Shown here: positions 2,918 to 15,227 of the stretch, in pieces
Position numbering within the stretch: position 1 is the first letter of the stretch
Layout: every line of letters begins with the position of its first letter
Source: Lentisphaeria bacterium
GTDB taxonomy: Bacteria > Verrucomicrobiota > Lentisphaeria > Victivallales > Victivallaceae
NCBI GenBank assembly: GCA_017504435.1
Contig: JAFVRD010000033.1
Coordinates: forward strand, 1-52,694
DNA length: 52,694 bases
Reading direction: 5' to 3'
Notes under the pieces: model-generated
The model's database searches: none
What the model saw: only the letters and a program-made list of their open reading frames with translations
What the model was told of the DNA's origin: nothing
Made by a program: the position numbers and the translations under genes

Positions 2918-5900
2918 ATGGGTAATATGTGTCCTGAGTCAAAAGTGTTGCGTACCGGAAAAAATGCATACTGTTTCAAAAATGGTGAAGTTCTGCCGGC
3001 AGGCAGTTTTTCCGGCGGCAGGGGGAAATTGAATTTCGCACTGTATCCGGATGGGGAAAATCCCAAATGTGCGGAAATTTTGACCGTGGGAAAAATGCTC
3101 CTGAAAATGGAAGGTTTTCAGCTTCGCGTTCAGCTTGGAGAACGCAGTTTTCTGCATCCGGCAGTGCTCAATGACAGTATGTTCAATGCTCTGGAGATCG
3201 CCGCTGACGGCAGATTGATCCGGATCAGTGTAAACATTGACCGGGTCATGGTGATTTCCGGTGCGGAAATGCTGGATGGCGAAGCGGTATTTTCCGGCAG
3301 TGAAAAGCGTTATTTTTTCCGCGGCATGGTGACAGATATAAGCTGTGGAGATTTTTCCGGAGAGATCGTGCCGCCGGAAAAAACAGCCGGGGAAGTTCCG
3401 GAAATCGCAGTTCCTGATGATTTTCCGGACCGGATTTCGCTGGAAGGAGAATGGGAATTTTTCTGCACGCCGCGGGATTTTGATGCGGCTTCCCCGCTGC
3501 CGGATAAAAAACTTTATACCGCCAAAATGGTGATCCCCGGTTATTGGGATGATCATACTGATTTGATCATGCGGACGCGTTCATTTGACCGTTCTGCCAA
3601 GACCAATCCCCGGTTCCGGCCGCTGTCACTGCCCATGGGGGAAATCACTCCGGATGCTTCAATGCCGTTTCTGGTCGGTACCGGTTATTACCGGAAGTGT
3701 TTCCGGTTTGCTCCGGGAACTCTTCCGGCGGCGGTGATATTGGAATTGGGGCCGGCAGTCTGGGGCAGCGCGGTTTACTGCAACGGCAAATTGCTTTCGG
3801 TCAATACCGGATATTCCACCGGCAGCCGGGTGGATTTGAGTGAAACGCTGGATTTTGACGGCGGAATAAACACCATTGTCATTGCCGTTTCCAACTACAA
3901 ACATGTTTTTGACGGTAATACTCAGGAAAACAGTCAGCATATTGGTTTGGCGGTGCGCGGTTATCAGGGCATGCGCTGCGGTATTGACGGGTATTGCCGG
4001 TTGAAATTTGCCGCCGCCGGCAGTATCACTGATGCGTGGGCAGATTTCCGCAACGGCAAACTGAATTTGTATTGTGAAATTTCCGGCGTCGAAGCGGATG
4101 TCCGGTGGACGCTCAAAGATGCCTGCGGTAAAACTGTAAAAACCGCATCTGGAAAAAATCCGGTGATTGATGGCGATGGATTGTCGCGTTGGAGCGATAC
4201 TGCTCCGGTGCTGTATGAAATAAGTGCCGAATCGCTGGTCAACGGCAAATGTTCCGACCGGGTGCAGTTTTCTTACGGGCTCCGGGAAATGCGTTGCGAG
4301 GGACCCCGGATGTTCCTCAATGGAGAACCGGTCTATTTGCGTGGAGCAACAGAACATTACTATTTCCCGGAAACCGCCAATGCACCGTATGATTTTGACA
4401 AATATCTCCGGGATATCCGGACGTGGCAGGAGCTGGGTTTCAACTTTTTGCGTTTCCACACCTGGTGTCCGCCGGAACCGTATCTGGCGGCGGCGGATGT
4501 ATGCGGTATGATCTGTCAGGTGGAAGTTCCGCCGCATGTGGAAGAAGCAGAGTGGATAAGGATATTGAAATATCTGCGCCGTCATGTTTCCGTGGCGGTC
4601 ATTTGCGGCGGCAATGAGGAGGATTTTACGGAATTCCGGATCGGAGAGGTGCGCCGTCTGGCGGAATTGACCCGGGAATTGATGCCCGGAACACTTTTCA
4701 ATCCGCAGGAGGGGTTGGCAAAAGTTGAATACCGTCTGGCTCCGGATGAACCGGGAGTGGCAACCGAACCGTTTATCCATGATCCGGAAAAGTTCCGGCA
4801 GCTGGCAGAATTTTCTGATGTGTACGGCAGTTACAGCTGGGGATATTTCAGCTATATTCACACTATGTTTCCCGGAGCGGAGGAGGTCGACAAACGTTAT
4901 ACGGTGCATAAGAAGCCGATTTTATCTCATGAAATCGGTATCATGGGCGGCTGGCTGGACTTCCGCAATGAGGCGCGTTACCATAACACGGTCGTTCCCG
5001 GAGACGTTTATAAAGAATCCCGGAAACATTTGGAAAAATACAATTTATTTCACCGGGCGGATGAATTTTTCCGCTTGAACAGTGCGTTTGTGAACCGCTT
5101 GCGCAAAGCGATGTTTGAAAACCTCCGCAGCTGTATTTCGCTGAATGGTTATGACTGCCTCGGCGTTTGTGATGCCCACTGGCACCGGTGCGGTTATCCC
5201 TGCGGTATTCTTGATGAATTCAATCAATGCAAACCCGGAGTGATCCCTGCCGAGATCCGGCAGTATAACGGAGCGAGTATTCTGCTCTGTGATCTGGATA
5301 ACTACCGGAATTTCCGTGCCGGAGAACTTTTCAAAAGGACGATTTCGGTATCGCATTTCGGCAAAGGTATCTGGCGCGATGCGGTTTTGCAGTGGCATAT
5401 TGATATCGACGGGCAGGAATATTCCGGAGTCTGTCAGGTTCCGGAGATCGCACCGGGAACGTTGACGGCAGCCGGAACTCTGGAAATAACTTTGCCGGAA
5501 ATCATCACTCCTGCCGCCGGTGTGTTGAAGTGCAAATTGATTGCCGGAGAAACGGTGTTGGAAAATCATTGGGATTTCTGGGTCTTTCCGGAGGTGTCCG
5601 GATTTGCCTCATCCGACCGGTTCAAAGTGGTACGGAAACTGGATGATGAGGTTATAGATTTTATTGCTGAGGGTGGAAAAGTTCTGTTGACGGCGAATTT
5701 TCCGGCGGGCCGGATGCTGGAGAAATTTCAGGTCGTGACCACCGGGCGCAGTGCGGGACATCTGGGGACGGTCATTGCGGAACATCCGCTGATGGCGCAA
5801 ATTCCGCATCAGGGATTTGCGGATTGGCAATTTTTTGATATGCTGCAGTTTGCCGCTTCCATGGATTTTACCGATTCGCAGCTGCCTTTCAATCCGCTGA

Positions 5901-6211
5901 TCGAATATATCCCCTCATTCAAAAACGTCTTCCGCAAAACGCCGCTGTGTGAATTGCGGGTCGGTGAAGGTACTTTGATGATGTGCGGATTGCGGTTGGA
6001 CAATCCTGATCCGGGGACATTGTACTTCAAATCCCGGTTGTTTGCATATCTGGCGCAGGACGGAACAAGTTCAGCTCCGGCAGTGGACAGCGGATTGCTC
6101 AAATCGCTTATCCGGCAGGAATTTCCGGACAGCGGTGTGGCAAAGACCGATGAAGCATGGGATCCCAATGTCTCTGCGGGCAAAAAACAGGACCCGGCTG
6201 CGGGCAGGTGA
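2918..6211 (+). CDS. Glycoside hydrolase family 2 enzyme, copy A, no signal peptide
   Basis: This 1097-residue protein has GH2 architecture: an N-terminal extension (1 to about 165), a jelly-roll sugar-binding domain starting LEGEWEF with MVIPGYWDD, an Ig-like domain, and a TIM barrel from about residue 470 (FLNGEPVYLRGATEHYYFP). The acid/base glutamate is E567 in GGNEED and the nucleophile is probably E672 in LSHEIG. The last 200 residues (GGKVLLTANFPAG, then GEGTLMMCGLRL) resemble a GATase-like trimerisation domain. The substrate cannot be predicted; family members cleave beta-galactosides, glucuronides, mannosides or glucosamine. It is a close paralogue of the next gene but starts exactly where that protein's signal peptide ends. 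The upstream frame has a stop at 2873-2875 and no other usable start, so it appears cytoplasmic. Confidence 0.85.
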   Translation: MGNMCPESKVLRTGKNAYCFKNGEVLPAGSFSGGRGKLNFALYPDGENPKCAEILTVGKMLLKMEGFQLRVQLGERSFLHPAVLNDSMFNALEIAADGRLIRISVNIDRVMVISGAEMLDGEAVFSGSEKRYFFRGMVTDISCGDFSGEIVPPEKTAGEVPEIAVPDDFPDRISLEGEWEFFCTPRDFDAASPLPDKKLYTAKMVIPGYWDDHTDLIMRTRSFDRSAKTNPRFRPLSLPMGEITPDASMPFLVGTGYYRKCFRFAPGTLPAAVILELGPAVWGSAVYCNGKLLSVNTGYSTGSRVDLSETLDFDGGINTIVIAVSNYKHVFDGNTQENSQHIGLAVRGYQGMRCGIDGYCRLKFAAAGSITDAWADFRNGKLNLYCEISGVEADVRWTLKDACGKTVKTASGKNPVIDGDGLSRWSDTAPVLYEISAESLVNGKCSDRVQFSYGLREMRCEGPRMFLNGEPVYLRGATEHYYFPETANAPYDFDKYLRDIRTWQELGFNFLRFHTWCPPEPYLAAADVCGMICQVEVPPHVEEAEWIRILKYLRRHVSVAVICGGNEEDFTEFRIGEVRRLAELTRELMPGTLFNPQEGLAKVEYRLAPDEPGVATEPFIHDPEKFRQLAEFSDVYGSYSWGYFSYIHTMFPGAEEVDKRYTVHKKPILSHEIGIMGGWLDFRNEARYHNTVVPGDVYKESRKHLEKYNLFHRADEFFRLNSAFVNRLRKAMFENLRSCISLNGYDCLGVCDAHWHRCGYPCGILDEFNQCKPGVIPAEIRQYNGASILLCDLDNYRNFRAGELFKRTISVSHFGKGIWRDAVLQWHIDIDGQEYSGVCQVPEIAPGTLTAAGTLEITLPEIITPAAGVLKCKLIAGETVLENHWDFWVFPEVSGFASSDRFKVVRKLDDEVIDFIAEGGKVLLTANFPAGRMLEKFQVVTTGRSAGHLGTVIAEHPLMAQIPHQGFADWQFFDMLQFAASMDFTDSQLPFNPLIEYIPSFKNVFRKTPLCELRVGEGTLMMCGLRLDNPDPGTLYFKSRLFAYLAQDGTSSAPAVDSGLLKSLIRQEFPDSGVAKTDEAWDPNVSAGKKQDPAAGR

Positions 6212-6353: not shown

Positions 6354-9300
6354 ATGAGATGCAACATAGTTTTATTATTGGTTTTTATTATGAATTTGAC
6401 CGTTTTGACAAGTGCAGGCAGTCCGCTTGCGCCGGCAGAGCTCCGGCTGCGGGACAACAGTATCGCATACCGGTTCAAAAACGGGGAATATCTGTGTGCC
6501 GGGGAGTTTCCCGGCGGCAGAAATGTTCTGCATCTGGAAATTTCTCCTGATCCGGAAAATCCGGTCATTGCCGGGATTTTTCAGGTGGGCAAAGTGATGG
6601 TCAAACTGGATAATTTTCAGTTGCGTATTCAGATCGGCGACCGGAATTTTCTGCATCCGGCGGTGTTGATACAGGATCACTTCAATCCGGTGAAAATCGC
6701 CAGTGACGGGGAATTGCTCAGCATCTCCGTCGGCAGTGGCGAACCGATGGTCATTTCCGGCGGCGGAGATTTTTGCGGCAAAATAGAATTCCTTCCGGAG
6801 GTTCAGCGGCACCGTTTCCGCGGGCAGGTGAAAAAAGATATCCGCATTGAGCCGTTTGACGGAAAGATCGTTCCGCCGGTCAAACAGCTTCCGGAAGCAG
6901 AACTCATCACTTTGAACGGCACTTATCCGCAGGAGATCGACCTTGCCGGCAAATGGGATTTTTTCTGCACTCCGAAATCGTTTGACCAAAATGCCCCGCT
7001 GCCTTCCCCAAACCGTTTTACTGCCCAAATGGTGATCCCCGGTTATTGGGATGATCATTATGAACTGCTCCGGGAGACCCGCTCATTTGACCGTTCTGCG
7101 CGCATCAATCCGCGTTACCGTCCATTCACCTTGCCGATGGGGGAAATGACTCCGGATGCTTCGATGCCGTATCTGGTGGGGACCGGTTATTACCGGAAAA
7201 ATATCCGTTTTGCTCCGGGAACAGTTCCGGCGGCGGTGACTTTGCGTATCGGTCCGGCGGTGTGGGGGGCTGCGGTTTACTGCAATGGCAAACTGGCAGC
7301 ATATAATTCGGGATATTCGACTTGGACAGAGTGCCGGTTGGATAAATTTCTGGATTTCAGCGGCGATAATACCATTGTGCTTGCGGTTTCCAATTTTGAC
7401 CGGGTTTTTGACGGCAATACTCTGGAAAACAGTCAGCATATCGGGGTTTCGGTGCGCGGTTATCAGGGCATGCGCTGCGGTATTTCCGGCGGGATCGGAT
7501 TGAAAATTTCCCGGTCGGAATCCATCAGTGACGCATACGCCCGCTTTGACGGTAAAAAACTGCTGCTTTTTGCGGAACATTCCGGCGCGGCGGAGGTGGC
7601 TTGGACGATCCGGGACAAAGATGATAAAGTGGTAAAAACCGCTTCCGGAAAAAATGCGGCAGTGGATACGGACGGGATGCACATGTGGAGCGAAAGTGAT
7701 CCGGTGCTTTACCGTATTGAAGCGGTGTTGAGCAAATCCGGAAAAGTGCTGGATAAATATCAATTCAACTACGGTCTGCGTCAGGTCAGCTGTTCCGGAT
7801 ACCAGATCATATTCAACGGCAAACCGGTTTATTTGCGCGGGCTTACGGAACATCACTTTTTTCCGGAGAGCTGCAATGCACCCTATGATTTTGACAAATA
7901 TGTCCGGGATATAAAGACGTGGAAATCTTACGGATTCAATTTCCTGCGTTTCCACACCTGGTGTCCGCCGGAACCATATCTGGATGCCGCCGACCGGATC
8001 GGTATGATCTGTCAGGTGGAAGTGCCGCCGCATGTGGATGAAGCGGAGTGGCGGCGGATATTGAAAACATTGCGGCGGCATGTTTCCGTAGTGATCATTT
8101 GCGGGGGCAATGAGGAGGATTTCACTGATTTCCGTATGGCAGAGGTGAAACGGCTCTCTGAGGTGGTCAGGGAACTGATGCCCGGAACGCTTTTCAATCC
8201 GCAGGAGGGATTGTCCAAAGTTGAATACCGGATGCGTCCGGATGTGCCCGGAGTGATCACTGAACCGTTTATCCATGATCCGGAAAAGTTCCGGCAGCTG
8301 GCGGAATTTTCGGATGTTTACGGCAGTTATACCTGGGGATTTTTCAGTTATATCCATACGGAGTTTCCCGGAGCAGAAGAGGTCAACCGGCGTTACACGG
8401 TTCACGGCAAACCGATTTTGTCCCACGAGGTCGGGATCATCGGGAATTGGCTGGATTTCCGCAATGAAAAACTCTATGAGAAGTGCCGGATCCCGGATGA
8501 TGTTTACCGCGAGACGCGTAAATATCTGACCCGGTGCGGTGTTTTTCACCGGGCGGATGAATTTTACCGGTTGAATTGTGAACAGGCGAACCGTCAGCGT
8601 AAAGCGATGCTGGAAAATGTCCGCCGCTGCCGAACCGTTACCGGGTATGATCTGCTTGGTGCTTATGATGCCCACTGGCACCGGTGCGGTTATCCCTGCG
8701 GGCCGCTGGATGAATTCAACGCTCCCAAACACGGGGTGACTCCGGAATATATGCAGCGGATCAATAGCGAAACGGTGCTGTTCAGTGATGCGGATTGCTA
8801 CCGTGCCAAAGCGGAAAATACAAAGTTCACATTGAATATCGGCATATCCCATTACGGCAGAGAAACGCTTGCCGGCGGGAAACTGCGCTGGACGCTCCGG
8901 ATGCCGGGTAAAGAATTCAACGGAGAAAACGCGGTTGCCGCCGTGGTGCCGGGAGCTGTTATGGATATCGGCAAATGCGAAGTGACTCTGCCGGCGGTGG
9001 ACAAACCGGTCAAAGCGGTGGTGAGTGCAGAATTTACGGTCAACGGGCAAAAGTTTGTGAATGATTGGGATTTCTGGGTTTTTCCGGCGGTGAAAGCTCC
9101 GGAGATCCCTGCCAATGTCAAAATCGTTGACCGGCTGGATGATGAATTGATCGATTTTATCTCCTGCGGCGGCAGGGTCATGCTGACCGCAAATTTCCCG
9201 GCAGGAAAAATGGTCGAAAAATTCCAGTTGGTTACCGCCGGACGCAGTTCCGGTCATCATGGTATAATCATCGGCAAACATCCGCTGCTTGCGGACATGG

Positions 9301-9722
9301 TGCATGAGGGCTTTGCGGATTGGCACTTTTTTGCTATGCTGCGGCATGCGGTTTCGATGGATTTTACCGGTTCAAAATTGCCTTTTAATCCGCTTATTGA
9401 GTACATTCCGTCTTACAAACTGGTGCGTTACAAAACTCCGTTGTGTGAATTGCGTATCGGCAAGGGGGTTTTGCTGATGTGCGGCATGCGTCTGGAGAGT
9501 TTTGATCCGGCAGGGCACTATTTCTTTGCCCGGATCGTGGATTATCTGGGGCAGAATAAATTTGCCGCAGCTCCGGAAGTGGATGTCGCGCTGCTCAAAA
9601 AACTTATCCGCCGGGAGTTCCCGGATCTGGGAATCGTTAAAACCGATGAGGCATGGGATCCCAATGTCTCTGCCGGAAAGACGAAACAGCCGCAAGCAAA
9701 AAAATATAACATAGGAAAGTAG
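6354..9722 (+). CDS. Exported glycoside hydrolase family 2 enzyme, copy B
   Basis: This 1122-residue paralogue of the upstream gene has the same domain order: sugar-binding domain (DLAGKWDFF, MVIPGYWDDH), Ig-like domain, TIM barrel (FNGKPVYLRGLTEHHFFP) and C-terminal GATase-like region. Catalytic residues are acid/base E587 (GGNEED) and putative nucleophile E692 (LSHEVG), spaced 105 residues apart as in copy A. Unlike copy A it begins with a hydrophobic signal peptide (NIVLLLVFIMNLTVLTSAG), with cleavage likely near residue 22 to 26, so it should act in the periplasm or outside. Both copies share the C-terminal KTDEAWDPNVSAGK. The tandem arrangement implies local duplication. A pseudopilin gene follows after 9 bases and is probably cotranscribed from the promoter at 6285-6313. 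The exact polysaccharide is unknown. Confidence 0.87.
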   Translation: MRCNIVLLLVFIMNLTVLTSAGSPLAPAELRLRDNSIAYRFKNGEYLCAGEFPGGRNVLHLEISPDPENPVIAGIFQVGKVMVKLDNFQLRIQIGDRNFLHPAVLIQDHFNPVKIASDGELLSISVGSGEPMVISGGGDFCGKIEFLPEVQRHRFRGQVKKDIRIEPFDGKIVPPVKQLPEAELITLNGTYPQEIDLAGKWDFFCTPKSFDQNAPLPSPNRFTAQMVIPGYWDDHYELLRETRSFDRSARINPRYRPFTLPMGEMTPDASMPYLVGTGYYRKNIRFAPGTVPAAVTLRIGPAVWGAAVYCNGKLAAYNSGYSTWTECRLDKFLDFSGDNTIVLAVSNFDRVFDGNTLENSQHIGVSVRGYQGMRCGISGGIGLKISRSESISDAYARFDGKKLLLFAEHSGAAEVAWTIRDKDDKVVKTASGKNAAVDTDGMHMWSESDPVLYRIEAVLSKSGKVLDKYQFNYGLRQVSCSGYQIIFNGKPVYLRGLTEHHFFPESCNAPYDFDKYVRDIKTWKSYGFNFLRFHTWCPPEPYLDAADRIGMICQVEVPPHVDEAEWRRILKTLRRHVSVVIICGGNEEDFTDFRMAEVKRLSEVVRELMPGTLFNPQEGLSKVEYRMRPDVPGVITEPFIHDPEKFRQLAEFSDVYGSYTWGFFSYIHTEFPGAEEVNRRYTVHGKPILSHEVGIIGNWLDFRNEKLYEKCRIPDDVYRETRKYLTRCGVFHRADEFYRLNCEQANRQRKAMLENVRRCRTVTGYDLLGAYDAHWHRCGYPCGPLDEFNAPKHGVTPEYMQRINSETVLFSDADCYRAKAENTKFTLNIGISHYGRETLAGGKLRWTLRMPGKEFNGENAVAAVVPGAVMDIGKCEVTLPAVDKPVKAVVSAEFTVNGQKFVNDWDFWVFPAVKAPEIPANVKIVDRLDDELIDFISCGGRVMLTANFPAGKMVEKFQLVTAGRSSGHHGIIIGKHPLLADMVHEGFADWHFFAMLRHAVSMDFTGSKLPFNPLIEYIPSYKLVRYKTPLCELRIGKGVLLMCGMRLESFDPAGHYFFARIVDYLGQNKFAAAPEVDVALLKKLIRREFPDLGIVKTDEAWDPNVSAGKTKQPQAKKYNIGK

Positions 9723-9731
9723 TGGGGAATT

Positions 9732-10565
9732 ATGGAAAAAAGATATCGCTTATCCGCTGTAAACAAATTCACACTTATTGAACTGTTGGTCGTAATTGCC
9801 ATTATTGCAATATTAGCAGCGATGCTCATGCCTGCACTGCGGGCGGCAAGGGAACGCGGTCAGCGGGCGAATTGTTCCGGTAATCTCAAACAGATGGGAG
9901 CTGCGTTTGGCGTATATACTGCGGCAAATGATGACTGGTTCCCCCCAGCCAATTGGGTAAGTTATAAAGATGCGTATGGTATTCCTTATGAAAGTACTGA
10001 AAAATACCGTTGGTCGTGGGCGTGGGCATTGCAGCATCAGAAAACCATGAGCAATAAAACGTTCAAATGTCCGACTGCGATGGCAACCTTGAGTGATAAT
10101 CACGGTTATTTAGCCAGAGATCTGGACAGGGATTACCGGGTGCAGATCGCCTCCACTCAGATCAACGTTGCCAGCTGGCTTTATATCGCTTATGCTTACA
10201 GTTCAGATTTTCTCGGAACCCGGGCCCATCAGCCTCCGTGGAACAATGCCAGATACAAAACCTCCGGGCGTTATCTGCCGGCGCGGGCGAACGAAATGAC
10301 TAAAGCCAGCACCTGCGTGGCGGTTGTGGACAGTGTGAACAATCACAGCAATATGCAGGGAACTGATGTACAATCTCACGGAGCACATACATTTGTTCGC
10401 AAGGATGGTGAAAGTGACGGCCATCACATCAATGATCTGCACAACAAATCCACCAATATTCTTTATGCCGACGGTCATGCGGGCAATATGAAAAATGCCC
10501 GGATCGAATTGGCGCCGTTATATAATCCTGATGCAGACAAGCAGCATTTGACCTGGCGGAATTGA
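9732..10565 (+). CDS. Type II secretion-like pseudopilin with H-X9-DG motif
   Basis: The 277-residue protein begins with a prepilin-type segment, [19 protein letters not shown] (F13, conserved E17), after a 12-residue basic leader. It has the [12 protein letters not shown] helix and ends with a globular domain carrying H237-X9-DG ([12 protein letters not shown]). This two-part structure is typical of the very abundant pseudopilin-like proteins of Lentisphaerota and Planctomycetota. It should be inserted in the inner membrane and, if processed, assembled by a GspE/PilB-PilC machine such as the one at 37868-42581. The residue before the expected cleavage site is Lys12 rather than the usual Gly. 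It follows the exported GH2 gene by 9 bases with a GGGGAATT ribosome site, which suggests a role in export, surface display or substrate capture for that enzyme (inference). Confidence 0.88.
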
Positions 10566-11348: not shown

Positions 11349-12845
11349 ATGGTCATCGACTACAACAGTAACGAGCTTGCCGCCAAAATCGGCAAACTTC
11401 CTGAAAATTTCACCAAAAGTGATATCATCAAGTTCATTCGCGATGAAGAGATCCGTCACATCAATTTCCAGTATCCTGCCGGTGACGGCAGATTGAAAAC
11501 TCTCAATTTCGTCATCAATGATGCCGATTATCTCAATGAGATCCTCTCCTGCGGTGAACGGGTGGACGGTTCCAGTCTGTTTCCGTTTATCGAAGCCGGC
11601 AACAGCGATCTCTATGTCGTTCCCCGTTTCCGGACCGCATACATGGATCCTTTCAGCGAACTGCCGACAGTGAACTTCCTCTGTTCGTTTTTCAACAAAG
11701 ACGGCGACCCGCTGGCAAGTTCTCCGGAATACACTTTGCACAAAGCGTGCGAAGCTTTCCGCGAGACGACCGGGTTGGAATTTCAGGCGATGGGCGAATT
11801 GGAATACTATGTGATTTCTGAAGATGACGGCTGTTTTGCCGCTGTCGATCAGAAAGGTTATCATGAATCTTCGCCCTATGCCAAATTCGGTGATTTCCGT
11901 CAGTTGTGCATGAATTACATCGCCAAAGCCGGCGGTCAGATCAAATACGGTCACAGTGAAGTTGGCAACTTCACTCTGGAAGGTAAAATTTATGAGCAGA
12001 ATGAGATCGAATTTCTCCCGGTCGCGGCTGAACTCGCTGCCGAACAGCTGATGGTCGCCAAATGGATCATCCGCAATCTGGCGTACCGCTGCGGTCTGGA
12101 TATCACTTTCGCTCCGAAAATCACCACCGGCAAAGCCGGTTCCGGTATGCATATCCACTTCCGGGTGATGAAAGACGGCAAAAATCAGATGCTGGACAAC
12201 GGCGTGCTTTCCGATACCGCCAAACGTGCCATTGCCGGTATGATGGAATTAGCTCCCTCCATTACCGCATTCGGCAATACCAATCCGACCAGTTATTTCC
12301 GTCTGGTGCCGCATCAGGAAGCTCCCACCAACGTCTGCTGGGGCGACCGCAACCGTTCCGTGCTGGTGCGGGTGCCGTTGGGCTGGACAAGTCAGAAAGA
12401 TCTGTGCAGTCAGGTCAATCCGTTGGAAAGTGCCGGTAAATTTGATACTTCTCAGAAACAGACGGTGGAAATGCGTTCTCCGGATGGTTCTGCGGATGTC
12501 TATTTGCTGCTCGCCGGTTTGGCTGTGGCATGCCGCTACGGCTTTGAACGCACTGATGCGTTGGAAATCGCGGCAAAAACCTATGTCAATGTCAATATCC
12601 ACAAAGAGGAAAATGCTGCATTGCTGGATTCTCTGAGTGTATTGCCGGACAGTTGTGCTGCTTCCGCAGATTGCCTTGCTGCCCAGCGGGCGATTTATGA
12701 AGATAAAGGGGTGTTTGCCCCCGCAATGATCGACGGATTGATCGCGTCATTGCAGAAATTCAATGACCGCACCCTCCGTCAGGATATCGGCGGAGATCAG
12801 GCCAAGATCCTTGAATTGGTCAAAACCTATTTCCACTGCGGATAA
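11349..12845 (+). CDS. glnA: Glutamine synthetase
   Basis: This 498-residue protein is a glutamine synthetase, which condenses ammonia and glutamate with ATP in the cytoplasm. It shows the beta-grasp domain (residues about 20 to 110, with ERVDGSSLFPF), the catalytic domain with metal-ligand GELEYYV, the histidine motif GSGMHIHF, the ATP/glutamate segment NPTSYFRLVPHQEAPTN and NRSVLVRVP, and EMRSPDGSADVYLLLAGL. The NLYDLP-type adenylylation loop of enterobacterial GSI is not seen in the expected stretch after NPLESAGKF, so covalent control by GlnE is unlikely (inference). The ribosome site is GAGG about nine bases before the ATG. It is transcribed alone and ends at the bidirectional terminator at 12903-12946. 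Confidence 0.93.
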   Translation: MVIDYNSNELAAKIGKLPENFTKSDIIKFIRDEEIRHINFQYPAGDGRLKTLNFVINDADYLNEILSCGERVDGSSLFPFIEAGNSDLYVVPRFRTAYMDPFSELPTVNFLCSFFNKDGDPLASSPEYTLHKACEAFRETTGLEFQAMGELEYYVISEDDGCFAAVDQKGYHESSPYAKFGDFRQLCMNYIAKAGGQIKYGHSEVGNFTLEGKIYEQNEIEFLPVAAELAAEQLMVAKWIIRNLAYRCGLDITFAPKITTGKAGSGMHIHFRVMKDGKNQMLDNGVLSDTAKRAIAGMMELAPSITAFGNTNPTSYFRLVPHQEAPTNVCWGDRNRSVLVRVPLGWTSQKDLCSQVNPLESAGKFDTSQKQTVEMRSPDGSADVYLLLAGLAVACRYGFERTDALEIAAKTYVNVNIHKEENAALLDSLSVLPDSCAASADCLAAQRAIYEDKGVFAPAMIDGLIASLQKFNDRTLRQDIGGDQAKILELVKTYFHCG

Positions 12846-12902: not shown

Positions 12903-12946
12903 AAAAGACCTTTTGCACTCGATGCAGAGTTGCAAAAGGTCTTTTT
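12903..12946. terminator. Bidirectional intrinsic terminator between glnA and the antiporter
   Basis: Arms at 12903-12917 and 12931-12945 form a perfect 15-base-pair stem (AAAAGACCTTTTGCA and its complement). A T run follows on the plus strand, and the A run at the left arm supplies a T run on the minus strand. It serves two convergent genes. Confidence 0.85.
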
Positions 12947-12966: not shown

Positions 12967-15141
12967 TCAGTGAATGAAAAGTTCCCGGATTTCTTTGGCA
13001 GATGACGCGTTGAGGATCTTCTGCAGCTTTTCCGGATCGGTCAAAATAGAACTGATCGCGGCGAGACATTCAATATGCGGCGCATTCGCTTGCATGGGGC
13101 TGAGGCAGAGAATGAATATCCGGGTTTTTTCGCCGTCCAGAGAATCAAAGTCATAACCTTTTTTGGAAATACCGATGGCGATCGAGGTGAATTTGACCGC
13201 ATCAGTACGGGCATGCGGCAGGGCGATCCCGTTTTGCATACACGTTGAGGCAACACATTCGCGCTGTAAAACTTCGCAGAGACAGGCATCCCGGTCTTTC
13301 AGGACACCGCATTTATCCAGAGCATCAATGAGTTCATCTATGACTTCGGGTTTGTCTTCCGCCTGAAGATCCATGATGATTGCTGCCGGCTGGAGACTGC
13401 GGGCGAGCAGATTTTTCATCCGGCGACGGTTTTCCGGAGCGAATTCCTGATTTTTGGTGAAATAATCCTGCCGCAATTCTGCAGGTGAGGCAATGTTTTT
13501 CAATTTTTCCAAATCCATGTGCAAAGATACGATCGCTTCAAACATTGTTGCCTGAATAAAAGGCACTTCATCCGGATTGGATTCAAAAATGATATCTGTA
13601 CCGGAAACGGTCATGGCGAATGAAAGTTCATCTTTGCGGATCTGCATAACGCCGCTTTCTTTGTCCAATTGACTGAGCATATAGCCTTCTGTGGAAAATG
13701 TGTCGATCAACTGACGCAGTACAAAATCCGCCAATATCTGAGAGTGGAACGAATAAGGTGTATGGATGACCGACATATCTTTGGTCTCTTTGCGGACACC
13801 TTTGCCTCTGAGTCCCAACACCGCCGAAAGCAGCGGCGGAGCAACGATCGTCGTCACCAGGGTCATGATGATCGCTACACCGAAAAGTTCCGACCCCAGT
13901 ATCGGTTTGCCCTCATACATGGTAGTCATACCGATACCGGCGATGATGAGTGCAACTTCACCGCGGGGAACCATGCCGGTGCCGATGCGGAGCGCACCGA
14001 GCATATTGAAATTCATAAACAGTGCCGGAAGCGCACAGCCGATGATTTTGGCGAGGATCGCCAGCAGAGAGTAGATCGCACCGATTTTCAATACATTCAT
14101 ATCGGCGAATACCCGGATATCCACCAGCATACCCATGACTACAAAAAACACCGGTACCAGAAAGTTGTAAAGCGGATGCAGAGAACGCTGCAGCGCAAAG
14201 GAGATATCCGTTTTGGACAGGCTCAATCCCATTACATACGCCCCGATGATCATTGCCAGACCCTGCTGCTCAAAAATGCCCGCCAGAAACAATGCCAACC
14301 CGAACGCCAATGTGGAAAATACGGTCGCGGATTTGAAAAGTTTGAGAAATTTGGCGATTTTGGTCGCCAACAGCAATCCCACTGCGGTTGCCAACAGCCA
14401 GAAACCGATACATTTTGCGGAAATAAGTCCGATTTTGCCCCAATCAGTTTCTCCGCCTGCCGGTACCGTTGCCAATCCCATGACGATGGCCAGACAGATA
14501 ATGCCCAGTACGTCGTCGATCACTGCGGCGGCAAGGGTGGTGACACCTTCAGGAGTGTCGATTTTTTTCTTTTCAGAGAGTATCCGTGCCGTGATGCCGA
14601 CGCTGGTAGCGGTACAGAGGATACCGAGAAAAAGTGAGCACGGATGCATAAAATTGCCCCCGGTCGCTTCCGGCAGCAGGAATACTCCCACCGATGCTCC
14701 GAACAGAAATGAGAATATCACTCCGCCGATACCGACCAGCGTCCCCACCAGTGAATAACGGAAAAACATCCGCAGATCAGTCTCCAGACCGGACATGAAC
14801 AGCAGCAGGATCGAACCGATTGTCGCCAGCGCGTACAGTGAACTGTGATATGCCGGAAAGGTCACATTGATGATTTTGGCATCTCCGATGATCGAGTCTC
14901 CGGCAAGCTGGACGGTCTGGGCGAATCCAAATAAACCGTGTTCCAAACCGTGCAGCGGGATGCTTATGCCTCCGAGCAGGTACGGACCGATTATCACCCC
15001 GGCAAGCAATTCGCCCAAAACCGATGGGGATTTGAGTTTTTTGGCAAGATCACCGCAAAATTTGGCGGCAAAAATAATTGTTCCCAACTGCAGAGCCAGT
15101 ATGGCGATCTGTTGGACGACTGTTAAAGAAAAATTTAACAC
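12967..15141 (-). CDS. CPA2-type cation/proton antiporter fused to a PTS EIIA-2 domain
   Basis: The 724-residue protein has two parts. Residues 1 to about 430 are a KefB/NapA-like monovalent cation/proton antiporter with roughly 12 to 13 membrane segments, the motif SVLGELLAGVIIGPYLLG and the ion-binding pair VIDDVLG. After a linker of about 150 residues, residues about 575 to 724 form a fructose/mannitol-type PTS EIIA domain (IDELIDALDKCGVL, then GIALPHART with the phospho-accepting H643). Free PTSNtr EIIA is known to control potassium transport in proteobacteria, so the fusion could gate ion flux by phosphorylation (inference). No EI or HPr gene is present here. The start is GTG with AGGAG nine bases upstream. 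Promoter at 15200-15227, terminator shared with glnA. Confidence 0.9.
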   Translation of the reverse strand: MLNFSLTVVQQIAILALQLGTIIFAAKFCGDLAKKLKSPSVLGELLAGVIIGPYLLGGISIPLHGLEHGLFGFAQTVQLAGDSIIGDAKIINVTFPAYHSSLYALATIGSILLLFMSGLETDLRMFFRYSLVGTLVGIGGVIFSFLFGASVGVFLLPEATGGNFMHPCSLFLGILCTATSVGITARILSEKKKIDTPEGVTTLAAAVIDDVLGIICLAIVMGLATVPAGGETDWGKIGLISAKCIGFWLLATAVGLLLATKIAKFLKLFKSATVFSTLAFGLALFLAGIFEQQGLAMIIGAYVMGLSLSKTDISFALQRSLHPLYNFLVPVFFVVMGMLVDIRVFADMNVLKIGAIYSLLAILAKIIGCALPALFMNFNMLGALRIGTGMVPRGEVALIIAGIGMTTMYEGKPILGSELFGVAIIMTLVTTIVAPPLLSAVLGLRGKGVRKETKDMSVIHTPYSFHSQILADFVLRQLIDTFSTEGYMLSQLDKESGVMQIRKDELSFAMTVSGTDIIFESNPDEVPFIQATMFEAIVSLHMDLEKLKNIASPAELRQDYFTKNQEFAPENRRRMKNLLARSLQPAAIIMDLQAEDKPEVIDELIDALDKCGVLKDRDACLCEVLQRECVASTCMQNGIALPHARTDAVKFTSIAIGISKKGYDFDSLDGEKTRIFILCLSPMQANAPHIECLAAISSILTDPEKLQKILNASSAKEIRELFIH

Positions 15142-15199
15142 AGTTCCAATCTCCTGAAAATATAGGATTCATTAATATATGTTCAAATGAAATTCACTT

Positions 15200-15227
15200 A
15201 ATATAGTACATGAAAAATTTTTTTCAA
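15200..15227 (-). promoter_or_regulatory. Promoter of the antiporter-EIIA gene
   Basis: On the minus strand TTGAAA (15222-15227) and TATATT (15200-15205) are separated by 16 bases. Confidence 0.6.

Follow-up and report, generated by a model that had tools for sequence, protein, structure and literature searches.

The 52,694-nucleotide stretch of Lentisphaeria DNA analyzed here (the window) encodes a cation/proton antiporter, a middle domain, and a PTS EIIA domain in a single frame of 724 residues. This protein likely exchanges Na+ (or K+) for H+ in the manner of NapA, with an activity governed by the phosphorylation of its own C-terminal EIIA. The fusion itself, first proposed in an initial annotation made from the sequence, is confirmed by matches to both PF00999 and PF00359 within the frame. 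Its domains and key residues are as follows.

12967..15141, minus strand: whole gene, CPA2 (NapA-like) antiporter, middle domain, and EIIA in that order, 724 aa (ORF and Pfam)
13816..15066, minus strand: Na_H_Exchanger (PF00999) membrane domain, residues 26 to 442 (Pfam, E = 4.7e-54)
13399..13809, minus strand: middle domain, residues 445 to 581, with a folded core at about 459 to 550 (structure prediction and profile comparison)
12976..13395, minus strand: PTS EIIA type 2 (fructose/PtsN-like) domain, residues 583 to 722 (PF00359, E = 4.4e-30)
14512..14517, minus strand: D209-D210, ion-site Asp pair (NapA alignment and relatives)
14047..14049, minus strand: K365, aligned with NapA K305 (NapA alignment and relatives)
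13261..13263, minus strand: R627, catalytic Arg position (EIIA alignments)
13213..13215, minus strand: H643, phospho-accepting His position (PF00359 alignment)
13075..13077, minus strand: H689, second active-site His (EIIA alignments)

The membrane part resembles NapA in both fold and ion-site residues. In a search with the full-length predicted structure (mean pLDDT 85.1), the closest solved folds to this part were NapA 5bz2 and 4bwz (TM-score by target 0.89 and 0.83), and the nearest solved chain to the N-terminal part by sequence is NapA of T. thermophilus. Pairwise alignment places D209, D210, and K365 on NapA D156, D157, and K305, which we take to be ion-site residues, in agreement with the DD ion site that had been read from the sequence. 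The protein therefore has the CPA fold, the Na_H_Exchanger domain, and the Asp-Asp and Lys positions of a NapA-like CPA2 antiporter; NCBIfam likewise assigns the membrane part to CPA2, with scores that fall short of the cut-offs curated for its narrower models. Fold and ion-site residues are thus common to the two proteins, but the NapA chains in the PDB (384 to 394 residues) have neither the middle domain nor the EIIA. The next structural match is KefC, in which glutathione gates K+/H+ exchange via an RCK-type domain. KefC and the window protein are both CPA2 exchangers with a regulatory cytoplasmic C terminus (predicted to be regulatory in the window protein), but KefC has no EIIA. The ion exchanged for H+ would be Na+ (or K+), and the role in pH homeostasis suggested by the initial annotation is likewise putative. 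The same genome encodes two more PF00999 antiporters, both without an EIIA.

The C-terminal tail has the fold and the PF00359 match of a fructose/PtsN-class EIIA, together with its phospho-accepting His and catalytic Arg (H643 and R627). H643 aligns in PF00359 in the context LPH643AR, which bears out its identification as the phospho-histidine of a fructose-type EIIA. The nearest solved chains to the tail by sequence are PtsN proteins, and PtsN 3urr matches the predicted structure with a TM-score by target of 0.87 and an rmsd of 1.7, ranking below the NapA matches. Among NCBIfam models the tail groups with fructose IIA and PtsN and scores best as a fructose-type IIA, below curated cut-offs; the PtsN equivalog TIGR01419 gives 70.0 bits against a cut-off of 138.7. 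Judged by these profiles, the tail is PtsN-like but is not a PtsN.

Control most likely proceeds along a short phosphorelay, in which PEP would phosphorylate EI, EI would phosphorylate HPr, and HPr~P would phosphorylate H643. In one of its two states, the EIIA would dock on the middle domain and restrain the elevator of the membrane domain, and phosphorylation would set the membrane domain free. The restraining state is more likely to be the unphosphorylated EIIA, by analogy with PtsN and YcgO. In a study of E. coli, unphosphorylated PtsN is described as binding and inhibiting the K+/H+ antiporter YcgO, docking on a comparable C-terminal region (PMC11808508). If the unphosphorylated form were inhibitory here too, antiport would be high at high PEP and would track the cell's PEP/pyruvate balance, which suggests that the energy-metabolite state directly raises or lowers ion exchange. 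Like the PtsN-YcgO pair, the window protein combines a cation/proton antiporter bearing a cytoplasmic C-terminal region with a PtsN-type EIIA, the regulation being predicted in our case. In PtsN-YcgO, however, the EIIA acts as a protein of its own on an antiporter that belongs to CPA1 and has putative RCK and CorC domains (PMC11808508), whereas the window protein carries its EIIA in cis, is CPA2/NapA-like, and has a middle domain that is neither RCK nor CorC by Pfam. By this analogy, the protein would work as a cis version of PtsN-YcgO, that is, as a form of E. coli PtsN-antiporter control with a defined intermediate domain.

The arrangement is widely conserved. Of 288 genomes searched in the window's phylum, 129 contained a match, which in some cases covered just one of the two halves. 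In 60 further stretches taken from matching genomes, we found 64 fusions besides the window protein, as well as 24 antiporters that have no EIIA fused to them. Among named relatives, of which there are at least 574, the best 80 are all fused in one frame (80/80), a figure biased toward full-length matches because these are the best-scoring ones. By NCBI rank, these best 80 come from Spirochaetota (49), Lentisphaerota (16), Fidelibacterota (6), and Planctomycetota (2), with two unranked and one each from Cloacimonadota, Delongiibacteriota, Kiritimatiellota, Myxococcota, and Verrucomicrobiota; as metagenome bins make up nearly all of the set, the lone odd phyla should be read with care. D209-D210 and K365 are invariant in all 60 rows of alignment A1, which, like A2, comprises the window protein and 59 of the 64 fused relatives (L064, L068, L091, L092, and L093 are omitted), and they are kept in 80/80 of the best 80 named relatives. 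From this sequence record, we read the antiporter-EIIA pairing as old and selected. In a plasmid collection, 454 records match the fusion protein, none covering 80% of the query; the 10 matches listed cover 57 to 63% at the antiporter end, and H1 among them has no annotated EIIA alongside. In three relatives (L038, L064, and L089), the antiporter is followed by two stretches of EIIA type 2.

Between antiporter and EIIA, the initial annotation saw a linker of about 150 residues with no recognized family. The lack of a Pfam family stands, but the region is a folded domain and not a mere linker. The structure prediction which that annotation called for gave a confident fold for the approximately 130 residues alone (AlphaFold2, mean pLDDT 84.5), laid out as strand, helix, four strands, and long helix, and the same layout appears in the full-length model. 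We found no known family for it: the domain alone matched 0 Pfam families, 60 members searched against Pfam gave 13 scattered weak families (best E = 0.0079), and no PDB sequence matched at E 1. Fold matches are generic: the KA1 domain of SAD kinase scores best (Z = 8.8), and it and the domains of METTL16, RnlA, phosphoglucomutase, and BamC all lie within about one Z unit of each other; the best Foldseek match has an E value of 4.5e-03.

A profile of the middle domain finds it in other settings. In hhalign comparisons, it matches the tails of 24/24 antiporters without a fused EIIA (probability 98.0 to 99.2), the divergent branch L091 (99.4), which serves as an independent test because L091 was omitted from A1 and A2, and L094 (95.3). 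Among 104 shuffled controls, the highest probability was 37.9, and three negative controls (the region between TrkA_N and EIIA in L193, RlmH of the window, and the genome's stand-alone EIIA) stayed below 1. L094 is a 687-aa protein of antiporter, middle domain, and EIIA whose membrane part has no blastp match to that of the window protein (E limit 1e-5); its GGLRGAVP motif presumably marks a CPA1-like antiporter. Middle domain and EIIA therefore occur together on two antiporter branches. A further layout, Na_H_Exchanger followed by TrkA_N (RCK) and EIIA, occurs in three loci (L192, 1728-4013, plus strand; L193, 1614-3944, plus strand; L194, 303-2522, minus strand), of which L194 lacks the PHxR/K motif, and this cis layout with an RCK domain comes close to the PtsN-YcgO pair. 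That the middle domain is retained by antiporters that have parted from their EIIA, and is joined to an EIIA elsewhere, fits a docking and transmission domain, the role we would assign to it by analogy. A bolder proposal, which we hold only tentatively, is that it is an undescribed EIIA-docking, force-transmitting domain that forms with the EIIA a portable control cassette, possibly placing cation/proton antiporters under PEP-phosphorelay control across many phyla (Spirochaetota, Lentisphaerota, Fidelibacterota, Planctomycetota, and others).

The antiporters without a fused EIIA represent a split form of the same system. In a midpoint-rooted tree of 109 rows (20 of the 80 named relatives were placed in the trees), all 24 fall in one group (24/24 rows, SH-aLRT 100) among the fused rows. 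Directly upstream of 18/24, on the same strand, lies an EIIA gene, and in those 18 loci the first possible antiporter start falls -4 to 87 nt after the EIIA stop. In 1/24 the EIIA is 7.6 kb away, and for 5/24 there is no EIIA gene within the stretch fetched. The EIIAs of this clade keep the His and the Arg and themselves form one group (19/19 rows, SH-aLRT 98) in a tree of 146 columns with long branches. Fission from a fused ancestor is favored by these trees, short of demonstration because the antiporter tree was rooted at its midpoint. Since the pair occurs either as one polypeptide or as neighboring genes, the two parts are probably linked in function; the direct tie between phosphotransfer and antiport envisaged by the initial annotation is thus supported by conservation in many genomes and by an operon version of the pair.

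The split form also bears on an alternative hypothesis, in which the antiporter is a membrane anchor or sink and the EIIA a tethered PtsN that acts on other targets, leaving antiport unregulated. PtsN does have several partners, according to one report (PMC13104625), and the outputs of EIIA in the window's genome are diverse, given its free PtsN-like EIIA and its EIIA-CBS protein. An anchor role, however, does not predict that the EIIAs of the split clade, though separate, should be encoded beside the antiporter, nor does it sit well with the association, by fusion or by gene neighborhood, of EIIAs with two antiporter branches that carry the middle domain and with three RCK-bearing antiporters. 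We regard this hypothesis as unlikely.

The catalytic residues of the EIIA are intact. The initial annotation had raised the loss of other EIIA active-site residues as a possible objection; R627, H643, and H689 are all retained. Few columns of the EIIA domain are invariant in A1, namely R627, E628, T633, P642, H643, and P688. In the phylum sample (65 fused proteins, including the window's), the phospho-His and the Arg are each kept in 64/65, and both H643 and R627 are kept in 80/80 of the best 80 of at least 574 named relatives. The second active-site position is more variable: among the 65 fused proteins, 17 have His there and 41 have Tyr, while it is His in 57 and Tyr in 16 of the best 80 of at least 574 named relatives, and His in 20/20 of a set of other EIIAs that includes L094, itself a fused protein. 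The sole exception at both main positions is L068 (1506-3626, minus strand), with Tyr in place of the phospho-His and of the Arg. HPr is present in its genome despite these substitutions, so that one lineage or more may have an EIIA domain that works independently of phosphorylation. A linked decay of the His and the relay was considered and showed no clean link: the L068 genome (G123) has an EI match, whereas its relative G043 has no match to the EI N-domain (PF05524) despite encoding HPr and a total of three EIIA domains, and HPr and further EIIA proteins occur in both. L068 would suit the proposal that the EIIA is a structural or dimerization module that no longer takes phosphate. We nonetheless find this proposal highly improbable for the family, in which the His is kept in 64/65, 20/20, and 80/80 proteins (the last being the best 80 of at least 574) where few other columns are invariant.

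A relay able to deliver the phosphate is encoded in the same genome (2.26 Mb, 95% complete). The initial annotation noted that no EI or HPr is nearby, which is true of the window; the genome, however, has both, adjoining on contig C61, so the objection that it might lack them altogether does not apply. Profile searches found one HPr (E = 4.3e-24) and one EI (E = 9.8e-104 for the C-domain), encoded by adjacent genes. Around the active His, the HPr has the sequence MGLHARPA and the EI has GSTTSHTAILA, with GLHARP and TSHTAILA as the active-site motifs. The EI has 586 aa and matches the NCBIfam PtsP model from position 169 only, that is, without the PtsP N-terminal part; judged by this coverage, it does not appear to be the EI with an N-terminal GAF (PtsP) that typifies PTSNtr. 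EI presence is uninformative as evidence of co-occurrence with the fusion, since the EI N-domain is found in 286/288 genomes of the phylum. Besides the fusion protein, the genome encodes two EIIA type 2 domains, in a free PtsN-like protein and in the EIIA-CBS protein. The EIIA-CBS gene forms a second EIIA-transporter pair, overlapping the gene of a CitMHS-type transporter (contig C37, L008, 6021-6938 and 6929-8650, both plus strand), which is presumably NhaD-like.

The single relay of this genome, in which EI and HPr also serve two other EIIA outlets, is compatible with a signal running in reverse, in which ion or pH occupancy of the antiporter alters phosphate gain or loss by the EIIA, making the protein an ion sensor that feeds the PTS relay. 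Our literature searches found no precedent for such a sensor, and the conserved D-D-K ion site argues for retained transport; we judge the reverse signal very unlikely and continue to favor control of antiport by the EIIA. Profile searches of the genome gave no match to EIIC (PF02378), EIIB (PF02302), or HprK (PF07475), nor to EIIC_2 (PF13303), for which the search is a weak test (control positive in 1/14 genomes only); for the classes examined (PF02302, PF02378, and PF13303), then, no sugar-transporting PTS was found. The tail's best score, with fructose-type IIA, notwithstanding, there is next to no chance that the EIIA belongs to a sugar permease and was fused by accident, given a genome with no match to PF02302, PF02378, or, in the weak test, PF13303. 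With EI and HPr present and no match to HprK or to the sugar-permease families examined, the relay looks regulatory only. A survey from 2008 notes relays without permeases in Planctomycetes, spirochaetes, and kin, and assigns them a regulatory role (PMC2405797).

Two elements of this picture are already known: an EIIA fused to a transporter (LacS), and control of an antiporter by PtsN in trans (YcgO). LacS and the window protein are both secondary transporters with a fused EIIA or EIIA-like domain, but the parallel is one of architecture only, as LacS transports sugar and its fused domain is EIIA-Glc-like, whereas the window protein is an ion antiporter with a PtsN-like domain. The EIIA-Glc fold is unrelated to that of EIIA-Fru/PtsN. 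In LacS of streptococci and lactobacilli, the EIIA-like domain is phosphorylated by HPr and controls the transporter, and according to a 2023 review, direct phosphorylation regulates no bacterial transporter other than LacS (PMC10710835). The middle domain belongs to none of the families described in the libraries we searched. No paper describing a cation antiporter with a fused EIIA turned up in the literature searched, which took in few subscription papers and beyond which TCDB or transporter-domain surveys could mention one; the pairing, which recurs in several bacterial phyla, appears unstudied. If our proposal is true, these proteins would join LacS as a second, broader class of bacterial transporters that direct phosphorylation controls; they would also explain why relays persist without sugar permeases, one of their jobs being ion homeostasis. 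Here, the likely output of a permease-less relay is written into one polypeptide, making a link from carbon and energy to ion exchange testable with a single purified protein.

The fusion gene may also be transcribed on its own, as it is flanked by the following elements.

15200..15227, minus strand: sigma-70-like promoter TTGAAA-16-TATATT, 5' of the gene (10/12 match)
15151-15155, minus strand: AGGAG, 5' of the GTG start
15139-15141, minus strand: GTG start of the fusion gene
12903..12945, minus strand: strong hairpin with a T-rich tail just 3' of the stop, intrinsic-terminator-like (-24.8 kcal/mol, z -5.5)

The upstream promoter-like site and the 3' hairpin together suggest a single-gene transcript. 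Promoter-like sites in the scanned region number 5 against 3.1 in shuffles, barely above background, and the hairpin is absent from the list given by the same scan. Convergent with the antiporter gene is a glutamine synthetase gene (11349-12845, plus strand), an arrangement that might hint at a link to nitrogen. Elsewhere in the window, two adjoining and similar paralogues of 1097 and 1122 aa (2918-6211 and 6354-9722, both plus strand) are probably glycoside-hydrolase-like, and the gene at 9732-10565 (plus strand) encodes a protein with a type IV pilin-like N terminus.
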